This document shows, piece after piece, positions 1,618 to 61,944 of a stretch of DNA of 64,000 bases. Numbering within the stretch: position 1 is the stretch's first letter; each line of letters opens with the position of its first letter. This DNA comes from Sabulicella rubraurantiaca (lineage in GTDB: Bacteria; Pseudomonadota; Alphaproteobacteria; Acetobacterales; Acetobacteraceae): positions 124,001-188,000 of the forward strand of contig NZ_JAFEUU010000008.1 in assembly GCF_017355885.1 (NCBI RefSeq). Reading direction: 5' to 3'. A model generated the notes under the pieces. It searched no databases and was not told the DNA's origin. It saw only the letters and a program-made list of their open reading frames with translations. Both the position numbers and the translations under genes were made by a program.

Positions 1618-1805
1618 GAGGGGAGTGGGCGGCGTCACAGCAGACGCCGTCCGACCCGGTCAATGCTGCAGTTTGAGACCTGTTCCCCTCGTTGCAGGGA
1701 GTAGATCCTATGATGGATGCTTTAGGTGCGGCGCCACCGAAGCTGGGCGCTGGGGCCTTCTCGACTGGCGGCGGGCTTGAGCGTTGGCTTTTACGCTTTA
1801 GCCGG

Positions 1806-2120
1806 TCAGCAAAGCCTCACCCGTCCCTGTGGCGGGTCAGGGATCCAGCCATCTCGTCGGCTCGTCACCCTCTCCTGCTCAGGAAGCTCGCCGCGGTGCT
1901 CCCGCTGCTCCGGGATCAGACCTGTGCTCCCCGGCCCGCTCTCTGCGGTCTCCCTCTGGAAGCGCTGAGCCACGACCGCAGGCGGCTTCGACACTAGCCT
2001 CAGCGCCTGTTCCAGGATGGTGCGGTGTTCCTCCTCCGCCGACCGTCCATAGGCAGCCGCACGATCTTCAAGGCGCCTGACCATCTCCTCGCAGACGTCC
2101 CGCACCAGCAAATGAGCCAT
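1806..2120 (-). CDS. FitA-like ribbon-helix-helix antitoxin, orphan
   Basis: The N-terminal 42 residues match the FitA/VapB-type RHH consensus: MAHLLVRD, then VRRLEDRAA, then GRSAEEEHRTILEQAL. The start at 2120 is chosen because AGGGGATCAAG sits just upstream and the family begins exactly there. Family members bind DNA and neutralise a PIN-domain ribonuclease (FitB) encoded immediately downstream. Here no PIN gene follows. The C-terminal 60 residues (from about SKPPAVVAQ) do not look like the usual toxin-binding tail and may be read-through after a frameshift or deletion. Total length is 104 residues versus about 80 for the family. Likely an orphan or decaying antitoxin. Confidence 0.6.
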   Translation of the reverse strand: MAHLLVRDVCEEMVRRLEDRAAAYGRSAEEEHRTILEQALRLVSKPPAVVAQRFQRETAESGPGSTGLIPEQREHRGELPEQERVTSRRDGWIPDPPQGRVRLC

Positions 2121-2209
2121 CTTGATCCCCCTGAGGCCAGATGATGCCTCAGCTTCAAGGCTGGTGGATGCCGCGTGACGTCCATCCTTCTCCCAAGTTA
2201 CAAGAAAGC

Positions 2210-2262
2210 ATGGCCGCTCCTTCCCCTGCCCCGTCTTCCCGGACGAAACCTTATACCGAGCG
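2210..2262 (+). pseudogene. 5' fragment of the family found intact at 31540-32205
   Basis: The leader and first codons (ATGGCCGCTCCTTCCCC, then CCGTCTTCC and ACGAAACC) match the start of the intact gene at 31540. The upstream A-rich leader with AAGTTACAAG is also similar. Similarity ends within about 50 bases, shortly before the IS630 element, and the frame soon meets a stop. It is a truncated relic. Confidence 0.55.
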
Positions 2263-2369
2263 CCTGAAGGTCTGACTCGTGGGGCTTGAGCCGACACGGT
2301 TGGACGTGATTCATCGGCTGGCATGACATCTGGGGATCGATCATGCCGGCGCTGATGATTTGAGAAAAC

Positions 2370-3408
2370 GTGTCATCTGGCGAGTTGCGTCGACTGGCGA
2401 AGGTGGAGCGCGATCTGCGGGTGGCGCGACGCCTGCTGGCGATTGCGGCGGCCCTTGAGGGGCTGAGCCGGGAGGCGGCGGCGCGGATCGCGGGGATGGA
2501 CCGGCAGACGCTACGCGACTGGGTGATCCGCTATAACCGCGGCGGGCCAGCAGGGCTGTCGGACCATTGGGGCGATGGTCGCCCTTGCCGGCTGACGGAG
2601 GGCCAGCAGGCGACGCTGAAGGCCATCGTGCTGCAAGGGCCAGATCCCGAGGCGGACGGCGTCTCGACCTGGCGGCTGATCGACCTCTGCCGGATCGTGC
2701 AGGAGCGCTTCGGCGTGATCTACAGCGAGACCGGGATGGGCAAGCTGATGCACAGCCTCGGCTTGTCCTGGCAAACGCCATGACCGCAGCATGCCGAGAC
2801 CGACCGCGCCGCCCAGGAGCGGTTTAAAAAGGGGGCTTCGCGCAAGCCCTCGCCCAGGTCGCGGCCGACCACCCCGAGGCCGAGCGGATCGAGGTCTGGT
2901 TCCAGGACGAGGCCAGGGTAGGGCAGAAGGGGCGGATGGTCCGCCGCTGGTTCGGGCGCGGCATGCGGCCGCGGATGTTCAAGGACCAGCGCCCCCGCTC
3001 GGCCTACATCCTTGGCGCGGTCTGCCCGACCCGCGACACCGGCGCGGCGATCGTGCTGACCCATGTCTCGGTCGCAGCGATGAACCTGCTGCTCGAGGAT
3101 GTCGCTGCGCAGCTGCCGGCCGGCACCCATGCGGCGATGTTGATCGACAATGACGGTTGGCACATTGCCAACGACCTGCGCGTGCCGCAGAACATCAGCT
3201 TGGTCCACCTGCCACCCCCCTCGCCCGAGCTGAACGCCATGAAAAGGTCTGGCAGTACCTGCGGGACCGCTACCTATCGGGCCGGCTGTTCAGCGGCTCG
3301 CACGCCATCGTCGATGCCTGCTGCAAGGCTTGGGACAAGCTCATTGGCGAAACCGGCCGCATCCAGGCGCTGACCGATTTCGAGTGGGCTCAACAGGTCA
3401 GTCCATAG
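2370..3408 (+). pseudogene. IS630-family transposase, broken by one stop and two frameshifts
   Basis: Three consecutive pieces rebuild a single IS630 transposase. Residues 1-137 hold the helix-turn-helix (GMDRQTLRDWVIRYN, GGPAGL) and stop at an in-frame TGA at 2781 where an arginine codon is expected. The same frame then continues to a run of A5G5 near 2832, after which the next frame carries the catalytic core with VWFQDEARVG, LIDNDGWH and LPPPSPELN. A further one-base loss near 3240 (ELNAM for ELNPIE) moves the end (KVWQYLRDRYL to the stop at 3408) to the third frame. DDE residues remain readable but the gene cannot make one protein without recoding. Terminal inverted repeats were not identified. 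Confidence 0.85.
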
Positions 3409-3661: not shown

Positions 3662-4648
3662 TCAGAGGCCAGCGGGCCTTAGCCCTGCTGCCTGGGCGGC
3701 CTCGGCCCACTTCGTGTCCTCGGCCCGAAGCCGCACCGCGAACTCCGAGCCGGTGGACCCCACCGGCTCGGCGCCCACCTCGCGCAGCCGCCCTGCCACC
3801 GCTGGATCGCGTGTCGCCTCCATTGCCACTCGCTGAAGACGGTCCAGCACCTCCGACGGCAGGCCACTGGGTCCGGCGACGCCGTACCATGCCTCGACCT
3901 CAAAGCCGGGCACTGTCTCCGCCACCGTCGGGATGTCCGGCGCGGCTGCGATCCGCTGAGTTGAGGCGACCGCGATCGCCCGGGCACGGCCGGCACGGAC
4001 AGCCGGCAGCGCCGCGGCCGCAGCGCTGAAATAGAGTTGGACCCGGCCCGCCTCCAATCCCGCGATCACGGCGCTCGGGTTCGGATTGTGGTCGGGGCGG
4101 CATTCGCTGCCGAGCGCCCGGGTCAGCAGCACGAGCGACAGGTGCAGGAATGTGCCCTCGCCCAGTGTGGCGCACACGACGGGCCGGCTCCTCAGCACCT
4201 CCCCGAGTTCGCGGAGGTCCCGCGCCGGCAGGTCTGGACTGACCAGCACGAGCACCGGCGCCGTGGCGGTCAGGCTGATCGGCGTGAAGTCGGCCTGTGG
4301 GTCGAAGGGCAGGTTTCGCGCCACGTGGCGTGCAACCGGAAAGGACGGGGCGAGGAGCCCGATCGTGGAGCCGTCCGGGGCGGCCCGGGCCACCGCCTCG
4401 GCCATCGCGTTGCCCGATCCGCCGACGCGGTTCTCGACGACGACCGGGCGTCCAAGCCGAGGCGCCATGGCTGCCGCCAACAAGCGGGCGACGACATCCG
4501 AATTGCTGCCCTGAGCAAAGCCGACAAGCAGGCGCACCGGCTCGGGCGACGGTGAGGCACTTTGAGCGGACGCCGTTTCGTTGCAGGCCAAGCCCGCGAC
4601 CGTGATGGCAGCAAAGGAGACGGCGAACCGACGACCGAGATCCTTCAT
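3662..4648 (-). CDS. Bug/TctC-family tripartite tricarboxylate transporter receptor
   Basis: A 328-residue protein with a signal peptide ending near ETASAQS, then the family pattern VRLLVGFAQGSNSDVVARLL, GRPVVVENRVGG and AAPDGSTIGLL. It ends in the usual EDTKWAEAAQAAGL helix. Family members are periplasmic binding proteins for carboxylates and related small molecules, working with TctA/TctB membrane proteins that are absent here. The start at 4648 is preferred over an upstream ATG because GAGGAGG lies 5 bases before it. The gene stands alone between IS5 relics, so it is an orphan receptor, as is typical for the family. Glycine/serine replaces the more common PPGGxxD by QGSNSD near residue 43, which may alter ligand choice. 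Confidence 0.88.
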   Translation of the reverse strand: MKDLGRRFAVSFAAITVAGLACNETASAQSASPSPEPVRLLVGFAQGSNSDVVARLLAAAMAPRLGRPVVVENRVGGSGNAMAEAVARAAPDGSTIGLLAPSFPVARHVARNLPFDPQADFTPISLTATAPVLVLVSPDLPARDLRELGEVLRSRPVVCATLGEGTFLHLSLVLLTRALGSECRPDHNPNPSAVIAGLEAGRVQLYFSAAAAALPAVRAGRARAIAVASTQRIAAAPDIPTVAETVPGFEVEAWYGVAGPSGLPSEVLDRLQRVAMEATRDPAVAGRLREVGAEPVGSTGSEFAVRLRAEDTKWAEAAQAAGLRPAGL

Positions 4649-4883: not shown

Positions 4884-5124
4884 TTCAGGCGCTAACGGAC
4901 CCTTCTGTAATCGGGTCGGTCAATGACCGGCGTGGTGGTCACGTCGCGGGTTCCTCGCTTCTGTTCGTGGTCGGCGTGGAGCCGCCACAGGCTACGGCCA
5001 GGCAGGCGGGGCAGACCAATCTAGTAAGCGGGTTCGGCGGATGCCGGCACCGGGTCCGTTGCGGTCTCGCCCTGCCGCGTCCCCACAACGGGACGTCGGA
5101 CGCTTGGGTCAGAGGTGAGGGCGA
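4884..5124. other. Non-coding 3' flank of the IS110 transposase; possible bridge-RNA region
   Basis: About 240 bases without an ORF lie downstream of the IS110 transposase. They contain short inverted repeats such as CGGTCA/TGACCG near 4918. IS110-family elements carry a structured guide (bridge) RNA in a non-coding end: upstream of the gene in the IS110 group, downstream in the IS1111 group. The 5' flank here (6157-6341) is the other candidate. Sequence alone does not decide which one. Confidence 0.35.
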
Positions 5125-6156
5125 CTACGCCACGGCCACCTCCTTGCCCCAGCGGAACTCGGTACCGTCGCGCCACAGGCTCAGCAGCACGACGGCGAGC
5201 TTACGAGCCACCGCCACCTTGGCGCGGCGCATGCCCGAACGCCTCGCGATCGCCATGCCCCACGCCTTGAGTGACGACCAGCGGCTTGTTCGGGTCAGCA
5301 AGACGTTCGCAGCCTCGTAGAGCGCCTGGCGCGCCAGACCATCGCCCTGCTTGCTGATGTGTCCCACACGATCAGTCTCGCCGGACTGGTAGCGCCTTGG
5401 CGTAAGGCCGAAGTGGGCGCCAATAACACGCGATCGGCTGAACCGGGCGGGGTCATCCACCGCCGAGCAGAAAGTGAGCGCGGTGACCGGGCCCACGCCA
5501 GGCACGGTCATGAGCCTGCGGCAGACCGCATCGTCGCGTGTGGCGCGGACAACCAGACCGTGCAGGCGCTCCCGCTCGGACAGCAGCACCTCGCGCACCC
5601 GCAGCAGGGGCTCGATCACGGCGGCCAGGCTCTCGCGCTCCGCTGCCAGCTCGCGGACACGGCTGGGAAAGGCGCGGTCACCGACGGGGCCGACCTTCAG
5701 GCCAAAGCCGCGCAGCAGGCCACGGACGCCGTTGTCGATGTCCCTCAGCTTGCCCACGAGCAGCTTGCGCGCAGTGAGCAGCGCCCGAAGCTCCTGGGAG
5801 AGTTCGGACTTCACATGCACGGCCCGGAACCAACCGGTCCGGACCATCTGGGCGATGGCACGCGCATCGGTCCGGTCGGTCTTGGTCGGCATGGCCTTCG
5901 TCGCCGCCCGCAGCTGCCGTGTCTCGAGCAAAACCACCGGCAACCCTGCGGCCTTGAGCCCGGCATGAAGCCACTGCGACATCGGCCCCGCCTCGAGGCC
6001 AACACGGGCGAACTCCAGCCCCGTGCCCGTCAGGGCCGCCGCCAGTTCATCCGGCTCGCTTTCGGCCTTCAGTTCGCGGAGCACGGCGCCAGAGCCGTCA
6101 ACGATGCAGATGCTGCTCGTCTCCAGTGAGACGTCGATCCCGGCATAGTGGGTCAT
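5125..6156 (-). CDS. IS110-family transposase (DEDD/Transposase_20)
   Basis: An intact 343-residue recombinase of normal family length. The N-terminal RuvC-like DEDD domain begins MTHYAGIDVSLETSSI, continues with GLEAGPMSQWL and has the conserved KTDRTDARAIAQMV near residue 93. The C-terminal Transposase_20 domain begins around LMTVPGVGPVTALTF and contains SRVIGAHFGLTPRRYQSG with the catalytic serine region in YQSGE and ISKQGDGLAR. These enzymes cut and rejoin DNA under guidance of an element-encoded RNA. It is the best preserved transposase of the first 7 kb and lies between two IS5 relics. Element ends could not be fixed because the family lacks long terminal repeats. Confidence 0.92.
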   Translation of the reverse strand: MTHYAGIDVSLETSSICIVDGSGAVLRELKAESEPDELAAALTGTGLEFARVGLEAGPMSQWLHAGLKAAGLPVVLLETRQLRAATKAMPTKTDRTDARAIAQMVRTGWFRAVHVKSELSQELRALLTARKLLVGKLRDIDNGVRGLLRGFGLKVGPVGDRAFPSRVRELAAERESLAAVIEPLLRVREVLLSERERLHGLVVRATRDDAVCRRLMTVPGVGPVTALTFCSAVDDPARFSRSRVIGAHFGLTPRRYQSGETDRVGHISKQGDGLARQALYEAANVLLTRTSRWSSLKAWGMAIARRSGMRRAKVAVARKLAVVLLSLWRDGTEFRWGKEVAVA

Positions 6157-7077: not shown

Positions 7078-8307
7078 TTGGCGGACGAACCGGATGTCGT
7101 GATCGTCGGCGCGGGGATAGCGGGGGGCGCCCTGGCCACGGTGCTCGCCCGCGGTGGCTTGGACGTGCTCGTGCTAGAACGAGCGCTGGTCCACCGCGAT
7201 CGGGTCCGAGGCGAGTTCCTGGCGCCTTGGGGCGTGGCAGAGGCGGGCAAGCTTGGTCTGCTTGATGTGCTGGCTCGCGCTGGCACCCATTACACTGTCC
7301 GCACCGTCCCCTATCGGGATGGTCTTGACCCTGAGGCAGCGAGGGCGCGTGCCACCGACCTCAGCGTGATGCTGCCAGGCATTGCTGGCGCGGTGACCGT
7401 AGGCCACCCGCGCCTATGCGAGGCGCTCGACGCCGCGGCCTGTGAGGCCGGGGCGACGCTGTTGCGCGGCGCGTCTGAACTCTCAGTAGAGGCTGGCGAG
7501 CGTCCGCGGGTCGGCTTTACCCATGATGGCCACCGGCGTGAGGTATCGCCCCGGCTGGTAGTCGGCGCCGACGGGCGCGGGTCGGCGGTGGCGCGCTATA
7601 TTGGCTTGAACGCTGAGACGGACCCGATCCACCACATCATGGCAGGGCTTCTGGTTGAGGGCGCGGAGGCGTGGCCGGAGGATGAGCAGACCTTTGGCGC
7701 CCATAGCGGAGCCACGCTCTACGTCTTCCCTCAGGGCGGCGGCCGAGTGCGGCTGTACGTCAACCACACCCTCGCCGAACGCAGGCGCTACGCCGGTCCC
7801 GACGCGGCGCGCAACTTCCTGGCTGCTTTCAACGTGCCATCGCTGCCGTTTGGCGAAGCCCTGGCGGCGGCACGCCCAATTGGGCCGTGCCATGGCTACC
7901 CGAACGCCGACAGCTGGATCGACGAGCCGGTCGCGCCGGGGGTGGTGCTGATTGGCGATGCGGCTGGGCACAACGACCCCACGATCGGTCAGGGGCTGAG
8001 CATTACACTGCGCGACGTGCGCCTTGTCTCCGAAGCCATGCTTGAGGGTAGGTTTTCGGCCAAGACCTTTAAACCTTATGTGGAAGAACGGCGCGAGCGC
8101 ATGCGACGCCTACGCTTCATCGGTCGGCTTTTCTCTACGCTCCACGCCGAGTTCACGGAGGAGGCGCACCAGCGGCGCCAGCGCGCTTGGCAGCGTACTG
8201 GTGCAAATCCCGCCATCGGACTGCCCATACTCGCGATTCTGAAGGGGCCTGACGCACTTCCGTCTCACGCCTTCGAGCAGGAGGCGTGGGATCGTCTGCT
8301 CGCCTAG
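7078..8307 (+). CDS. FAD-dependent monooxygenase (PHBH/UbiH fold)
   Basis: A 409-residue flavoprotein. The N-terminal dinucleotide site is VVIVGAGIAGGALATVL with the ribose-binding LER (near residue 34), followed by the conserved VVGADGRGSAVAR (DG motif). The late GVVLIGDAAGHNDPTIGQGL (GD motif) binds the FAD phosphate. Such enzymes hydroxylate aromatic or polyketide-like substrates using NAD(P)H and oxygen; the substrate is unknown here. I chose TTG 7078, seven bases after GGAAG, because it starts just before the Rossmann strand; an ATG at 6994 would add 28 residues encoded by IS5 debris. A GFA protein follows 35 bases later. Confidence 0.85.
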   Translation: MADEPDVVIVGAGIAGGALATVLARGGLDVLVLERALVHRDRVRGEFLAPWGVAEAGKLGLLDVLARAGTHYTVRTVPYRDGLDPEAARARATDLSVMLPGIAGAVTVGHPRLCEALDAAACEAGATLLRGASELSVEAGERPRVGFTHDGHRREVSPRLVVGADGRGSAVARYIGLNAETDPIHHIMAGLLVEGAEAWPEDEQTFGAHSGATLYVFPQGGGRVRLYVNHTLAERRRYAGPDAARNFLAAFNVPSLPFGEALAAARPIGPCHGYPNADSWIDEPVAPGVVLIGDAAGHNDPTIGQGLSITLRDVRLVSEAMLEGRFSAKTFKPYVEERRERMRRLRFIGRLFSTLHAEFTEEAHQRRQRAWQRTGANPAIGLPILAILKGPDALPSHAFEQEAWDRLLA

Positions 8308-8342
8308 GAGTGTCTTGGCGATCGATAGTGGAGGGCAAGCCT

Positions 8343-8747
8343 ATGCCGACCCGCACCGCCACCTGCGCCTGCGGCCAACTCCGGGTGATCTGCGAGGGCG
8401 AGCCGCCGCGCGTGGTGCTCTGTGACTGCACGCAGTGCCAGAAGCGCACCGGCAGCGTCTACGGCGTGTCGGCCTACTTCGAGCGGGGGCAGGTGAGGAC
8501 CGAAGGAGCCTATAAGCGGTTCCGGCGCTCCTCGGACGCCGGGCGGTACATGGAGACCGCCTTCTGCCAGGAGTGCGGCTCAACGGTGTTCTGGGAGTTG
8601 GAGATGGCCCCCGGCAGGATCGGAGTGGCGGCCGGGGCCTTCGCCGATCCGGACTTCCCGGCGCCCCACGTCGCGGTCTGGACCGAGAACAAGTACCGTT
8701 GGGTCCCGCTGCCCGACGGCGTCCCCACCCGTCCGAAGCAGACCTGA
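8343..8747 (+). CDS. GFA (CENP-V/GFA) domain protein
   Basis: A 134-residue zinc protein with the complete GFA cysteine set. CACG is near residue 8, CDCTQCQKRTG lies around residue 30, and CQECGS is near residue 80. The family is named for a glutathione-dependent formaldehyde-activating enzyme, although that activity is doubtful for most members; they are best described as small zinc-binding proteins of unknown substrate. The start at 8343 begins the fold directly and has GGAGGG upstream. It likely shares a transcript with the monooxygenase. Confidence 0.85.
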   Translation: MPTRTATCACGQLRVICEGEPPRVVLCDCTQCQKRTGSVYGVSAYFERGQVRTEGAYKRFRRSSDAGRYMETAFCQECGSTVFWELEMAPGRIGVAAGAFADPDFPAPHVAVWTENKYRWVPLPDGVPTRPKQT

Positions 8748-8777: not shown

Positions 8778-10032
8778 CACTACCTGGGCACTTTGAATTC
8801 AAGGGGTGTTGGGAAGCTGCGCTTGCAATGCGGACATCGAATAGGCGCGACGAGGTGGGCGAACAGCTGACAAAGGCTCGCGCGTCGCACGGCCGGCAGG
8901 CTGGGTGACGGCGGCGGGCCCAGACGACGAGGCGACATTTTTCCCCCGCTTCAGCCGGCGGTTCTGAGCCAGGAGCAGGTGCTGCAGAAAGGCGAAGGCC
9001 ATGCAGCTCATCAGCGCGTGTCGGTGCAGCCCCGTCCAGGAACGCCCCTCGAAGTGGCCCAGCCCCAGCTCCCCCTTGAGCTGCTGGTGCGCCTGCTCGC
9101 ACACCCAGCGCGCCTTGATGGTCGAGGCCAGCGCGCGCAGTGACGTGTCAGGTCCGAGATTGCTGAGGTGATACTTGCGCTCGCCTGAGGAGCGCCACTC
9201 GCCCACCAGCCAGACCTCCTCGCCCGGCAGGTGGCGGTTGTTGCCCCAGACCGCGCCATCGCCGACCCGGACACGCAGGGCCGCAAACCGAGCCGTCAGC
9301 GCGCCCTTTGTCCCCTGTCGCCAGGTGATCCGACGCCAGGACAGCCCGGCCAGGACCTTCTCCGCCTCTCGCGGCTCCTCATCGGGCACCGGACGTCGCT
9401 TGCGGCCCCGCCACTGCGGCGGCACCGCGACCTGCACGGCGGCGCCGTAGACCTTCTGCACCCGCAGGATGCCCACGGCCCAGAGCAGGCCGCGCTCCGA
9501 CAGCGCCTGGCGGAACGCCGCGCTCGCGCCATAGCCCGCATCGGCCAGCACGGCGCCAAAGCGCACCCCCGCGGCCAGGAGCCGGTCCAGCTCGGCCAGG
9601 GCGATCTCGCCCTTGCTGCGTGGCTGCATCTCCGTATCCGGCACGCCGGCCTGAGCGCAGCGGGCGGGATCGCCGGTCCATTCCTCCGGCAGGAACAGGC
9701 GCAAGGCCACCGGCACGGGCACCTCGCCCTGGGCCAGGGTGAGCGAGACCAGGGACTGGCAGTTGGCCTTCTTGCCCAGCTGCCCACAATACTGCCGGGC
9801 CACGCCCACCGACAGCGTGCCCTTCTTGGGCAGCGCGGTGTCGTCGATCACGAGAAAGGCGCCTGGCCCGCCCACCAGCCGATCGGCCTCGCGTGCCAGC
9901 ACCGTCCAGAGCGGGGCGTCGTCCCAAGCTGTGCTGGCGATGAAGTGCTGCAGCTGGTCATGGCCGCCTCCAGCCGAGGTCACACGCTGGAACTCGGATC
10001 GGCGCGCCAAGACTACAAGTGCCCAGGTAGTG
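8778..10032 (-). mobile_element. IS701-family insertion sequence with CTAG target duplications
   Basis: Terminal inverted repeats CACTACCTGGGCACTT (8778-8793) and its complement (10017-10032) are identical over 16 bases. Both ends are flanked by CTAG (8774-8777 and 10033-10036), the 4-bp YTAG duplication known for IS701. The element is 1255 bp, shorter than typical family members, because the start of the transposase gene is missing. Insertion separated the GFA gene side from the pseudogene at 10053. Confidence 0.9.
8799..10010 (-). CDS. IS701-family transposase, N-terminally shortened
   Basis: The DDE core is complete: FLVIDDTALPKKG (first Asp), VLADAGYG (second Asp) and EQAHQQLKGELGLGHFEGR (Glu). 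PEEWTGDP is another family hallmark. Within the element the frame begins only 22 bases from the terminal repeat. The usual N-terminal DNA-binding region of roughly 90 residues is therefore absent; the protein enters directly at the GHDQLQHFIASTAWDD segment. TTG 10010 is the first plausible start inside the element; the frame stays open past the IS end to 10190. I infer an internal deletion that probably abolishes transposition unless supplied in trans. Confidence 0.75.
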   Translation of the reverse strand: MARRSEFQRVTSAGGGHDQLQHFIASTAWDDAPLWTVLAREADRLVGGPGAFLVIDDTALPKKGTLSVGVARQYCGQLGKKANCQSLVSLTLAQGEVPVPVALRLFLPEEWTGDPARCAQAGVPDTEMQPRSKGEIALAELDRLLAAGVRFGAVLADAGYGASAAFRQALSERGLLWAVGILRVQKVYGAAVQVAVPPQWRGRKRRPVPDEEPREAEKVLAGLSWRRITWRQGTKGALTARFAALRVRVGDGAVWGNNRHLPGEEVWLVGEWRSSGERKYHLSNLGPDTSLRALASTIKARWVCEQAHQQLKGELGLGHFEGRSWTGLHRHALMSCMAFAFLQHLLLAQNRRLKRGKNVASSSGPAAVTQPAGRATREPLSAVRPPRRAYSMSALQAQLPNTP

Positions 10033-60327: not shown

Positions 60328-60376
60328 CCCTGCCCATCGCCGCACTTGTCTGTCCGATGTGCTGCGATGGGCAGGG
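60328..60376 (-). terminator. Large stem-loop downstream of the bacteriocin-like genes
   Basis: Perfect 13-base arms CCCTGCCCATCGC and GCGATGGGCAGGG enclose a 23-base loop, in which CGCAC/GTGC can extend the stem. It is 21 bases beyond the stop of the 60398 gene. There is no strong U-tract, so it may also protect the transcript. Confidence 0.6.
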
Positions 60377-60397: not shown

Positions 60398-60688
60398 TCA
60401 GGAAGCGACCGCTCCGACAGCGGTTCCAACGAGAGCGCCTGAGGCCGTCAGTCCCGCCGTGGTGACAGCGCCGGCAGTGACGATGGTGCCCATGGTGACG
60501 CCCTCTGCGAAGACCGCCGCCGCTGCGGTGCCCAGAAGAGGGGCGGCCGCTCCGGCGGTGGCGATGGTGAGCGCCACTCCGGCCACGAGCCCGACGCCCG
60601 CGCCGATCCAGGTTGCGGCACCGATGCCACCGGCCACGTCATCCAGTTGGTCGTCGGACAGGGCGAGGGCGGCGTGGGTCTGCGTCAT
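60398..60688 (-). CDS. Double-glycine leader bacteriocin-like peptide A
   Basis: A 96-residue precursor. The 21-residue leader ends LSDDQLDDVAGG, the acidic, double-glycine recognition site of C39-peptidase/ABC exporters. The mature 75 residues are almost wholly Ala, Gly, Val, Thr, Leu and Ile (IGAATWIGAGVGLVAGVALT and AGAAAPLLGTAAAAVF), with no cysteine, typical of unmodified membrane-active peptides. RBS CAGGAGACACG lies upstream. Its partner gene precedes it by 67 bases on the same strand. No exporter or immunity gene is recognisable nearby, so the cassette is incomplete or the exporter is elsewhere. Confidence 0.78.
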   Translation of the reverse strand: MTQTHAALALSDDQLDDVAGGIGAATWIGAGVGLVAGVALTIATAGAAAPLLGTAAAAVFAEGVTMGTIVTAGAVTTAGLTASGALVGTAVGAVAS

Positions 60689-60755
60689 GGTCGTGTCTCC
60701 TGCGAAGAGGTCTGGAAGACGGGTTCAGGTAAGCGGGGAGAGTGAGAGAGGTGGC

Positions 60756-61040
60756 TCAGCCGATCGAGGAGCCGATCCGCTGACCCACGACGCCGGCGGC
60801 ACCGCCCAGCACGCCACCCGCCACAGCGCTCGCGACCGTCGCGCCACCGACGGCACCCTCGGCGGCGATGCCGGCCAACACAGCACCCGCGGCCAGACCA
60901 CCCGTCGCAGCGGTCACCACGCCACCGACGATGATGCCACCCACCAAGCCCAAGACGCCGCCCAGGCTCATGCCGCCCGCCACGTCATCCAGCTGGTCGT
61001 CGGAGAGGGCAGCGGCAGCGGGGAAAGAGGTGTGGGTCAT
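60756..61040 (-). CDS. Double-glycine leader bacteriocin-like peptide B
   Basis: A 94-residue precursor whose leader ends in the identical 12 residues LSDDQLDDVAGG. The mature 71 residues are glycine-zipper-like (MSLGGVLGLVGGIIVGGVVT, GGLAAGAVLAGI, GGVLGGAAGVVGQRIG), also without cysteine. ATG 61040 is chosen because it begins the leader; AAGGACC precedes it. Two related precursors in tandem are the hallmark of two-peptide (class IIb-like) bacteriocins; that the two act together is inference. The promoter must lie in 61041-61245, shared with the divergent resolvase gene. Confidence 0.78.
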   Translation of the reverse strand: MTHTSFPAAAALSDDQLDDVAGGMSLGGVLGLVGGIIVGGVVTAATGGLAAGAVLAGIAAEGAVGGATVASAVAGGVLGGAAGVVGQRIGSSIG

Positions 61041-61195
61041 GGTCTGGGTCCTTGGCTCTCGGTGGGTCCCGTCCTGCGGGAGTGAGGCCATCCTACCGGG
61101 GTCGCGCCATCGCTGAAGTCGATTGGACCGAAGCGAGCGATAGGCGGCGACGATGATCAGGTTGACTAGCGCTATGAAGGCGCGGCCGAGGGGGC

Positions 61196-61265
61196 GCCCG
61201 AAAACACTAGTTTTCGGGCAGAATCACTGCTGTTAGTTTTCCGGGATGTCGCGCTGCCCGAAAAC
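61196..61265. repeat. Hairpin repeats at the start of the resolvase gene (res-site candidate)
   Basis: GCCCGAAAAC (61196-61205) and its complement GTTTTCGGGC (61210-61219) form a perfect hairpin with loop ACTA. A degenerate GTTTTCCGGG lies at 61235-61244 and a third exact GCCCGAAAAC at 61256-61265, inside the resolvase start region. Repeated inverted boxes beside a serine resolvase gene suggest its recombination/operator site. Confidence 0.6.
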
Positions 61266-61944
61266 CCCTGCTCGAAAAGCCGCGTGCAAATCTGCCACCT
61301 CGGTGGTGGTGTCTCCTCCCCTCTTCGATCTGCCGGAGGGGCCGCGGGTCATCGGCTACGCGCGGGTGTCGACGGTCGACCAAGGCATCGAGCCGCAAAC
61401 GGTCGCGCTGGCCAATGCCGGCGTGTCCGAGATCTTCTCTGATGTCGGGATCAGCGGCTCCGTCATGCACCGGCCTGGCCTCGAGGCGGCCCTTGCCGCC
61501 CTGCACCCAGGAGACACGCTGGTCGTGGCGCGCCTGGATCGGCTCGGCAGCTCGACGGTCGGCATGCTCCAGCTGCTGCACGCGCTGGCATCGCGCGACG
61601 TGCGCTTCCGGAGCTTGGCCGAGGGCTTCGACACCACCACGCCGGCGGGCCGGGCCATGCTGCAGGTCGTCGCCGTCTTCGCGGAACTCGAGCGGAGCAC
61701 CATCCGCGAGCGCGTGGTTGCTGGCCTCGATGCCGCCCGGAAGAACGGCAAGCTGCTGGGGCGCCGGCCGTACCACGCCCGCGAGCTGCTGACAGCAGGT
61801 CGAAGCCAAGCTGAGGTCGCGCGAATTCTTGGTGTCGGGCGATCTACGATCCAGCGCCTGCAGCCCCCGACCGGCGAGGACGACTTTGCCAGGAAATTCC
61901 TGGCGCTGAAGGGAACGCTCCCTCGAGGATCGCTCACGGATTGA
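61246..61944 (+). CDS. Serine resolvase/invertase (Tn3-resolvase type)
   Basis: A 232-residue recombinase: RVIGYARVSTVDQGIEPQ contains the nucleophilic serine, followed by GDTLVVARLDRLGSSTVGML and FDTTTPAGRAMLQVVAVFAE. A C-terminal helix-turn-helix ends it (LLTAGRSQAEVARILGVGRS). The N-terminal 35 residues before VIGYARVST are longer than usual; initiation may occur further in, which would leave the third hairpin box at 61256-61265 outside the gene. It could resolve cointegrates of a lost Tn3-type element or stabilise the replicon. Confidence 0.9.
   Translation: MSRCPKTPARKAACKSATSVVVSPPLFDLPEGPRVIGYARVSTVDQGIEPQTVALANAGVSEIFSDVGISGSVMHRPGLEAALAALHPGDTLVVARLDRLGSSTVGMLQLLHALASRDVRFRSLAEGFDTTTPAGRAMLQVVAVFAELERSTIRERVVAGLDAARKNGKLLGRRPYHARELLTAGRSQAEVARILGVGRSTIQRLQPPTGEDDFARKFLALKGTLPRGSLTD

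Follow-up and report, generated by a model that had tools for sequence, protein, structure and literature searches.

The window (the whole 64,000-nucleotide stretch analysed here) is part of contig C63 of the Sabulicella rubraurantiaca genome, referred to as G000; a second genome of the same genus is referred to as G002. It contains two small genes encoding double-glycine precursors, tentatively referred to as precursors A and B, together with a serine recombinase gene and several non-coding features (Table 1). The two genes lie in tandem on the same strand, with B 67 bp upstream of A, and the ORFs, their core lengths, the exact identity of the last 12 leader residues and the absence of Cys from both cores all agree with the original prediction; 32 of the 36 bases encoding the shared leader end are identical. 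The cores had also been called different, and they are distinct, but they are nonetheless related: the precursors are 43-44% identical, their glycine zippers stand in the same register, and a search with A finds B at E 1.4e-4 while a search with B finds A at E 1.8e-4.

Table 1. Features at the precursor locus (positions in the window)
Feature	Position	Strand	Description
Stem-loop, 13 bp, perfect	60328-60340 with 60364-60376	minus	Downstream of A; no T-run
Precursor A gene	60398..60688	minus	96 aa: leader of 21 ending LSDDQLDDVAGG, core of 75 rich in Ala/Gly/Thr/Val
Precursor B gene	60756..61040	minus	94 aa: leader of 23 ending LSDDQLDDVAGG, core of 71 rich in Gly/Val/Ala, tail VVGQRIGSSIG
Conserved upstream element	61078..61149	minus	CTATCG ... 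CAATCGnCTTCAGCGATG ... CTGGCCTCAC; common to 8 loci in two genomes
Palindrome, 24 bp	61196..61219		GCCCGAAAACACTAGTTTTCGGGC; 155 bp before B, 26 bp before the recombinase gene
Serine recombinase gene (resolvase/invertase type)	61246..61944	plus	PF00239, 141.7 bits; divergent from the pair

Both genes are overlapped by long antisense ORFs, as is usual at such GC content, which gives some room to the reading that A and B are no more than chance ORFs of a high-GC sequence. We give this reading almost no credence, as the motif LSDxQLDxx[AS]GG has two occurrences in the window and none in 40 mononucleotide shuffles, homologues are present in two genomes, and codon position 3 is the most frequent site of substitution in all 36 comparisons among A and B genes. 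The original prediction had been staked on the frames being translated, and dN/dS (Nei-Gojobori) was used as the test of this. Values were 0.06-0.42 among six copies of A and 0.16-0.66 among seven copies of B, below 1 in 15 of 15 and 21 of 21 pairs respectively; the five highest B values (0.59-0.66) every one involve the copy on contig C31, and the window pair compared with its syntenic G002 counterpart gives 0.18 (A) and 0.50 (B). The sets exclude the truncated C14 gene, the partial C34 gene and the first C5 gene, which has another core, and two G002 copies of B entered the comparison minus their first codon. By these measures the frames of A and B behave as real genes, with purifying selection in both.

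Neither precursor has a significant match in Pfam or NCBIfam. Against PF10439 (Bacteriocin_IIc, gathering cut-off 27.1), B scores 10.8 bits (E 0.51) and A gives no match, and no Nif11 or nitrile-hydratase leader domain was matched in either up to E = 1. Single-sequence structure predictions of the window peptides give helices at low confidence (pLDDT 62 and 69). What the precursors share instead is seen when the 13 of them are compared. Their leaders are 19-26 aa long, with Leu at position -7 in all 13, Val, Ile or Leu at -4 in 11 (Ala in the other 2), and Leu at -12 in 11 (Phe in one, Met in one); both window leaders carry Val-4, Leu-7 and Leu-12, which are of the type recognised at -4, -7 and -12 by the LahT protease (PMC6363468). 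Gly stands at core positions 8, 12 and 16 (GxxxGxxxG) in 13 of 13, A and B included, and core residues 1-28 are free of Pro and charged residues in every one. Glycine-zipper words exceed composition shuffles modestly (P 0.006 for A, 0.019 for B), while plain GxxxGxxxG counts are not significant against the same kind of shuffle (P 0.06 and 0.10). The tail of B is polar and A is without a short polar tail of the Cdz kind; the C31 copy of B has a Cys at its C-terminus.

A precursor-family alignment search gave 12 matches in G000 and 4 in G002, so that the homologues with conserved leaders on which the original prediction depended do exist. Precursors are present in 2 of the 21 genus genomes and 2 of the 299 family genomes, with none among the 299 outside these two genus members. 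Across 385 genomes of the class, the search found only G000 and one weak match (G362, a Nif11-leader peptide, E 2.7e-4). A scan of genomic contigs with the precursors, in which records close to the window's genome were possibly left out, gave no match, and neither did plasmids searched with A. Four pairs are complete, all in the order B then A and 67-79 bp apart, and on contig C18 of G002 the window pair has a syntenic counterpart, again with the recombinase gene next to it. G000 also has lone B or B-like genes at C63:198307 and on C58, C31 and C14 (truncated), as well as, on C5, an A gene preceded by a leader that has a different core; as several copies are lone B or B-like genes, the pair is not always kept. 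Contigs C36, C9 and C24 of G000 each end in exactly 127 bp identical to the start of C62, an overlap that takes in some of an upstream element and the opening codons of B, while near-identical A genes stand at the beginnings of C61, which starts shortly ahead of its copy, and of C34, which starts within its copy. The precursor family thus breaks the G000 assembly, in which about three copies of the C62-type pair appear to have collapsed. Further short double-glycine peptides with different cores adjoin B-type or A-type genes on C31 (L016, about 5060-5440) and C5 (L013, 1470-1667), with the leaders LSDQSPDEVIGG, LTDEVLDHVSGG and LSDGHLDDVSGG.

A 72-bp element upstream of B recurs at 8 loci, six in G000 and two in G002, and is presumed to be the promoter/operator of the B-A pair. 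The element model is purely sequence-based and was built on these 8 loci, and hence recovers them. Its next three G000 matches (C36, C9 and C24; E 0.002), which are outside the model, lie upstream of further B copies; the best match in the other 19 genus genomes has E 0.029, and 17 of the 21 genomes have weak matches listed, with E no higher than 1. The stem-loop reported 3' of the second gene is real, and the 110 bases after A fold with a z of -4.8 against mononucleotide shuffles. We considered it as a terminator, a role that is unsupported because it has no T-run and the folds after eight other examined copies differ (z -0.4 to -2.3).

As originally noted, there is no exporter beside the window pair, and the full-genome check for a C39-peptidase ABC exporter proposed at that time gave a positive answer: the single match to PF03412 (C39) in the whole genome lies on contig C62. 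There, a B-A pair (C62:97-405 and 485-757) is directly upstream of an NHLP-type export trio consisting of an HlyD gene (TIGR03794, 233.5 bits against a cut-off of 156.2), a C39-ABC gene with the PF03412 match (TIGR03796, 966.6 against 853.3) and a second ABC gene (TIGR03797, 788.8 against 709.4). The C39 domain matches 6mpz, a double-glycine-motif protease domain that we take to be that of LahT, at 155 bits, with Cys, His and Asp in place. These three residues were compared as the catalytic triad of LahT (PMC6363468). The same five-gene module (B, A, HlyD and the two ABC genes) is found on contig C4 of G002, with 87% DNA identity over 7,120 bp that comprise part of the upstream element and all five genes; the shared block stops where the second ABC gene does, and on its 5' side it can be followed only as far as contig C62 reaches, to 96 bp before B. 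Of the 21 genus genomes, two exceed the TIGR03796 cut-off, and these are the two that have precursors, a co-occurrence that is weak evidence by itself since the two may simply be close relatives. Family scans and the comparison of the two genomes found no modification enzyme in the shared module. The gap between A and HlyD has a conserved GC-rich hairpin with three to four T after it (L010, G000 C62, 758-905; L038, G002, 8977-9148), a feature that might be expected if an attenuator separated the precursors from the exporter. Just past the exporter module on C62, outside the block shared with G002, is a DUF6734 gene (L010, 7538-8422; 158.9 bits). We infer with good support that the window peptides are exported, the pair probably being a satellite served in trans by the exporter encoded on C62.

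The recombinase gene beside the window pair has its counterpart beside the syntenic G002 pair, with 67% identity over 237 residues. The 24-bp palindrome is presumed to be the crossover site of this neighbouring enzyme, and we infer that the recombinase acts on it. At the syntenic G002 locus (L039, 10242-12628), two copies of the site, their starts 2,363 bp apart, surround a 2.4-kb segment that holds a winged-helix/TPR regulator gene (PF00486-TPR) absent from the window. Window DNA left of the site aligns left of the first G002 copy and window DNA right of it aligns right of the second copy, so that, as read from this alignment, the site marks the exact insertion or excision of the segment. With at most three mismatches, the site occurs in 2 of the 21 genus genomes, once in G000 and six times in G002, and the reversed control gave none; the C5 pair has a more degenerate version upstream. 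Elsewhere on C18 of G002, L087 has a second pair, the sites lying at 3768 and 7825, together with a recombinase homologue at 7875-8612 that is 64% identical to that of the window and, outside the left site at 1634-3217, a regulator 76% identical to that of L039.

An immunity gene was likewise said to be missing beside the window pair, and comparison of ORFs with the syntenic G002 locus bears this out: 8 of the 110 ORFs around the window pair match that locus, all 8 coincide with the two precursor genes, the DNA before them or the recombinase gene, and the comparison revealed no conserved third gene. ORF comparison around three satellite loci found no immunity gene, nor is there one in the A-HlyD gap of the exporter module or in the rest of that module as compared between G000 and G002, which ends at the last ABC gene; a gene upstream of the C62 pair could be missed, because the contig end cuts off the DNA there. 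Conserved ORFs do lie 1.4-3.3 kb from the lone C63 B gene (L012 compared with L038); one is a phage integrase (53 bits), and five others were scanned without a Pfam match. The integrase gene lies at L012 2139-3245, and the same DNA (L038 9956-10588) is found just upstream of the G002 exporter pair. In class IIb bacteriocins, the immunity gene is generally co-transcribed (PMC2806384), while the paper describing the Cdz system reports greater difficulty in identifying such genes in other genomes (PMC5380434). As no conserved immunity gene was found here, we do not claim membership in either class.

Among the closest described counterparts is the Cdz system of Caulobacter crescentus, also an alphaproteobacterium, in which two small hydrophobic glycine-zipper proteins are encoded by adjacent genes and exported by a type I system (PMC5380434); with this two-protein bacteriocin on record, the earlier remark that such peptides are little described in high-GC alphaproteobacteria needs qualifying. 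The features by which Cdz-like proteins were sought are a length of 60-151 residues, a leader ending in G[G/A/S], a zipper uninterrupted by Pro or charge, a polar tail, and type I genes within 10 kb (PMC5380434). Both A and B have the size, leader end and uninterrupted zipper, only B has the polar tail, and type I genes lie within 10 kb of the C62 and G002-C4 paralogues but not of the window pair. Cdz differs in having one ABC protein, an adaptor and the immunity protein CdzI (PMC5380434), whereas two ABC proteins, many dispersed copies and no immunity gene were found here, and the likeness described here is one of features. The class IIb bacteriocins of lactic acid bacteria similarly have adjacent genes, double-glycine leaders, GxxxG motifs and no sign of modification (PMC2806384). 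A and B share the leader type, the motif and the lack of any sign of modification, and lie on one strand at the spacing given above, presumably co-transcribed; they differ in their Gram-negative host, in the lack of a significant family match and in having no conserved third gene that could be the cognate, co-transcribed immunity gene. Their cores are also larger than those of class IIb bacteriocins.

The export trio itself (TIGR03794/TIGR03796/TIGR03797) was defined by Haft et al. (2010) together with long-leader precursors, whose leaders end on average at 83 (NHLP) and 70 (N11P) (PMC2887384). The present system resembles it in the side-by-side arrangement of three genes all over curated cut-offs and in having double-glycine precursors both beside and far from the exporter, both of which situations are noted there (PMC2887384), and differs in its much shorter leaders, with no Nif11 or nitrile-hydratase domain matched in A or B, and in the absence of a modification enzyme from the shared module. 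In Azospirillum, three loci (L081, L082 and L084) contain HlyD relatives 32-33% identical to that of the C62 module, and the leaders of Nif11-leader precursors there end in a similar way (e.g., LSDEQLDGVAGG), some of these precursors having short glycine-rich hydrophobic cores, but their leaders are long and their cores have 15-56 residues; in a PF07862 (Nif11) scan with a cut-off of 23.8, two precursors of L075, apparently a stretch of the L081 contig, scored 35.1 and 22.7 bits. Compared with these long-leader precursors, the window type has the look of a relative with a short leader. In L079, from a MAG of the Acetobacteraceae whose exporter stretches are 77% identical to those of C62, the 3.1 kb upstream of the exporter show no precursor pair, and motif scans found no short-leader precursor upstream of HlyD in L080, L083 and L085. 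On a Pseudoroseomonas cervicalis plasmid (NZ_CP115854.1; L086, 6336-6683), a 112-aa ORF directly before an NHLP exporter, with a leader-like part ending ELSADQLDHIAAG, is a possible long-leader precursor from the same bacterial family as the window genome. In cyanobacterial clusters, 150 of 290 precursors were unclassified ('other') (PMC3140520), so that similar exporters there may have short-leader substrates. A survey of Acetobacteraceae (PMC8776678) uses neither 'bacteriocin' nor 'NHLP' in its main text, and no two-peptide system in Roseococcus appears in the titles or abstract openings among the matches listed.

By all these comparisons, A and B belong to a real family of two-peptide glycine-zipper precursors that is conserved at the protein level and linked to an exporter. 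We favour, with reasonable though not strong confidence, the reading that they form a secreted, unmodified glycine-zipper two-peptide bacteriocin resembling CdzC/D, with the window pair as a satellite. Of its parts, export as double-glycine substrates is very likely and joint action of A and B is probable, while an antibacterial role is only slightly favoured. The two-component bacteriocin originally proposed is thus upheld as regards the tandem arrangement of double-glycine precursors, the existence of homologues whose leaders are conserved and the presence of a C39 exporter in the genome, and has to be given up as a stand-alone locus: the window pair is one of several dispersed copies, and the exporter lies beside a paralogous pair on another contig. 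In the favoured reading, the B-A pair would be transcribed from the shared upstream element, and the single C39 NHLP-type exporter next to the C62 pair would bind the window leaders via Val-4, Leu-7 and Leu-12 and cut the precursors after GlyGly. Release of the cores would also involve HlyD, the other ABC protein and, presumably, a channel in the outer membrane; the cores may then pair or aggregate through their GxxxGxxxG helices and permeabilise the membrane of competitors, as class IIb bacteriocins or the Caulobacter Cdz proteins do.

A bacteriocin in the strict Cdz or class IIb sense, with its immunity protein encoded elsewhere or by a neighbour too diverged to recognise, is a tentative alternative. 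It would account for the two peptides, double-glycine leaders, zippers and type I export, and could draw on both the cut-off DNA upstream of the C62 pair and the difficulty with immunity genes acknowledged for Cdz; a co-transcribed immunity gene would be expected, though, and the stretch from B to the last exporter gene has none; the G002 exporter pair is preceded by DNA that in G000 reads as the phage-integrase gene, and the exporter is an NHLP trio. The lack of a conserved immunity gene, in the module and around the window pair, would also be accounted for if the exported peptides are not toxic, in which case none is needed, and serve instead at the surface or in the matrix (as amyloid-like glycine-zipper fibres, in adhesion or biofilm) or as peptide signals. 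The sharing of one upstream element by many copies is in line with such a role, as are the glycine zippers, which are common in amyloids, and the aggregation of CdzC on the producer (PMC5380434). We still consider a non-toxin role unlikely, because the patchy spread over the family is more what one would expect of an accessory weapon than of a structural protein and because there are two distinct paired types. Hydrophobic cores of 71-75 residues are, moreover, large for signals.

A pair with no exporter nearby, in a genome where other copies are truncated (C14) or have changed cores (the first C5 gene), might also be a decaying relic of amplification that is out of use. With both window frames and the upstream element intact, and dN/dS against the syntenic pair at the values given above, this is improbable.

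Returning to the bacteriocin reading that we favour, the system may, more speculatively and with little likelihood as a whole, be a dispersed weapon set without dedicated immunity genes, in which one exporter serves many two-peptide cassettes that spread and diversify with one upstream element, some of them beside a serine recombinase whose 24-bp site would let segments, such as the regulator gene, enter and leave. Self-protection would then come from surface tethering, choice of target or a shared factor. The pair and its paralogues represent a short-leader, apparently unmodified two-peptide type tied to an NHLP trio, a trio that was defined on long-leader precursors. With one exporter, several precursor loci and two related genomes, they offer a small natural system for export in trans and for the apparent lack of immunity genes.
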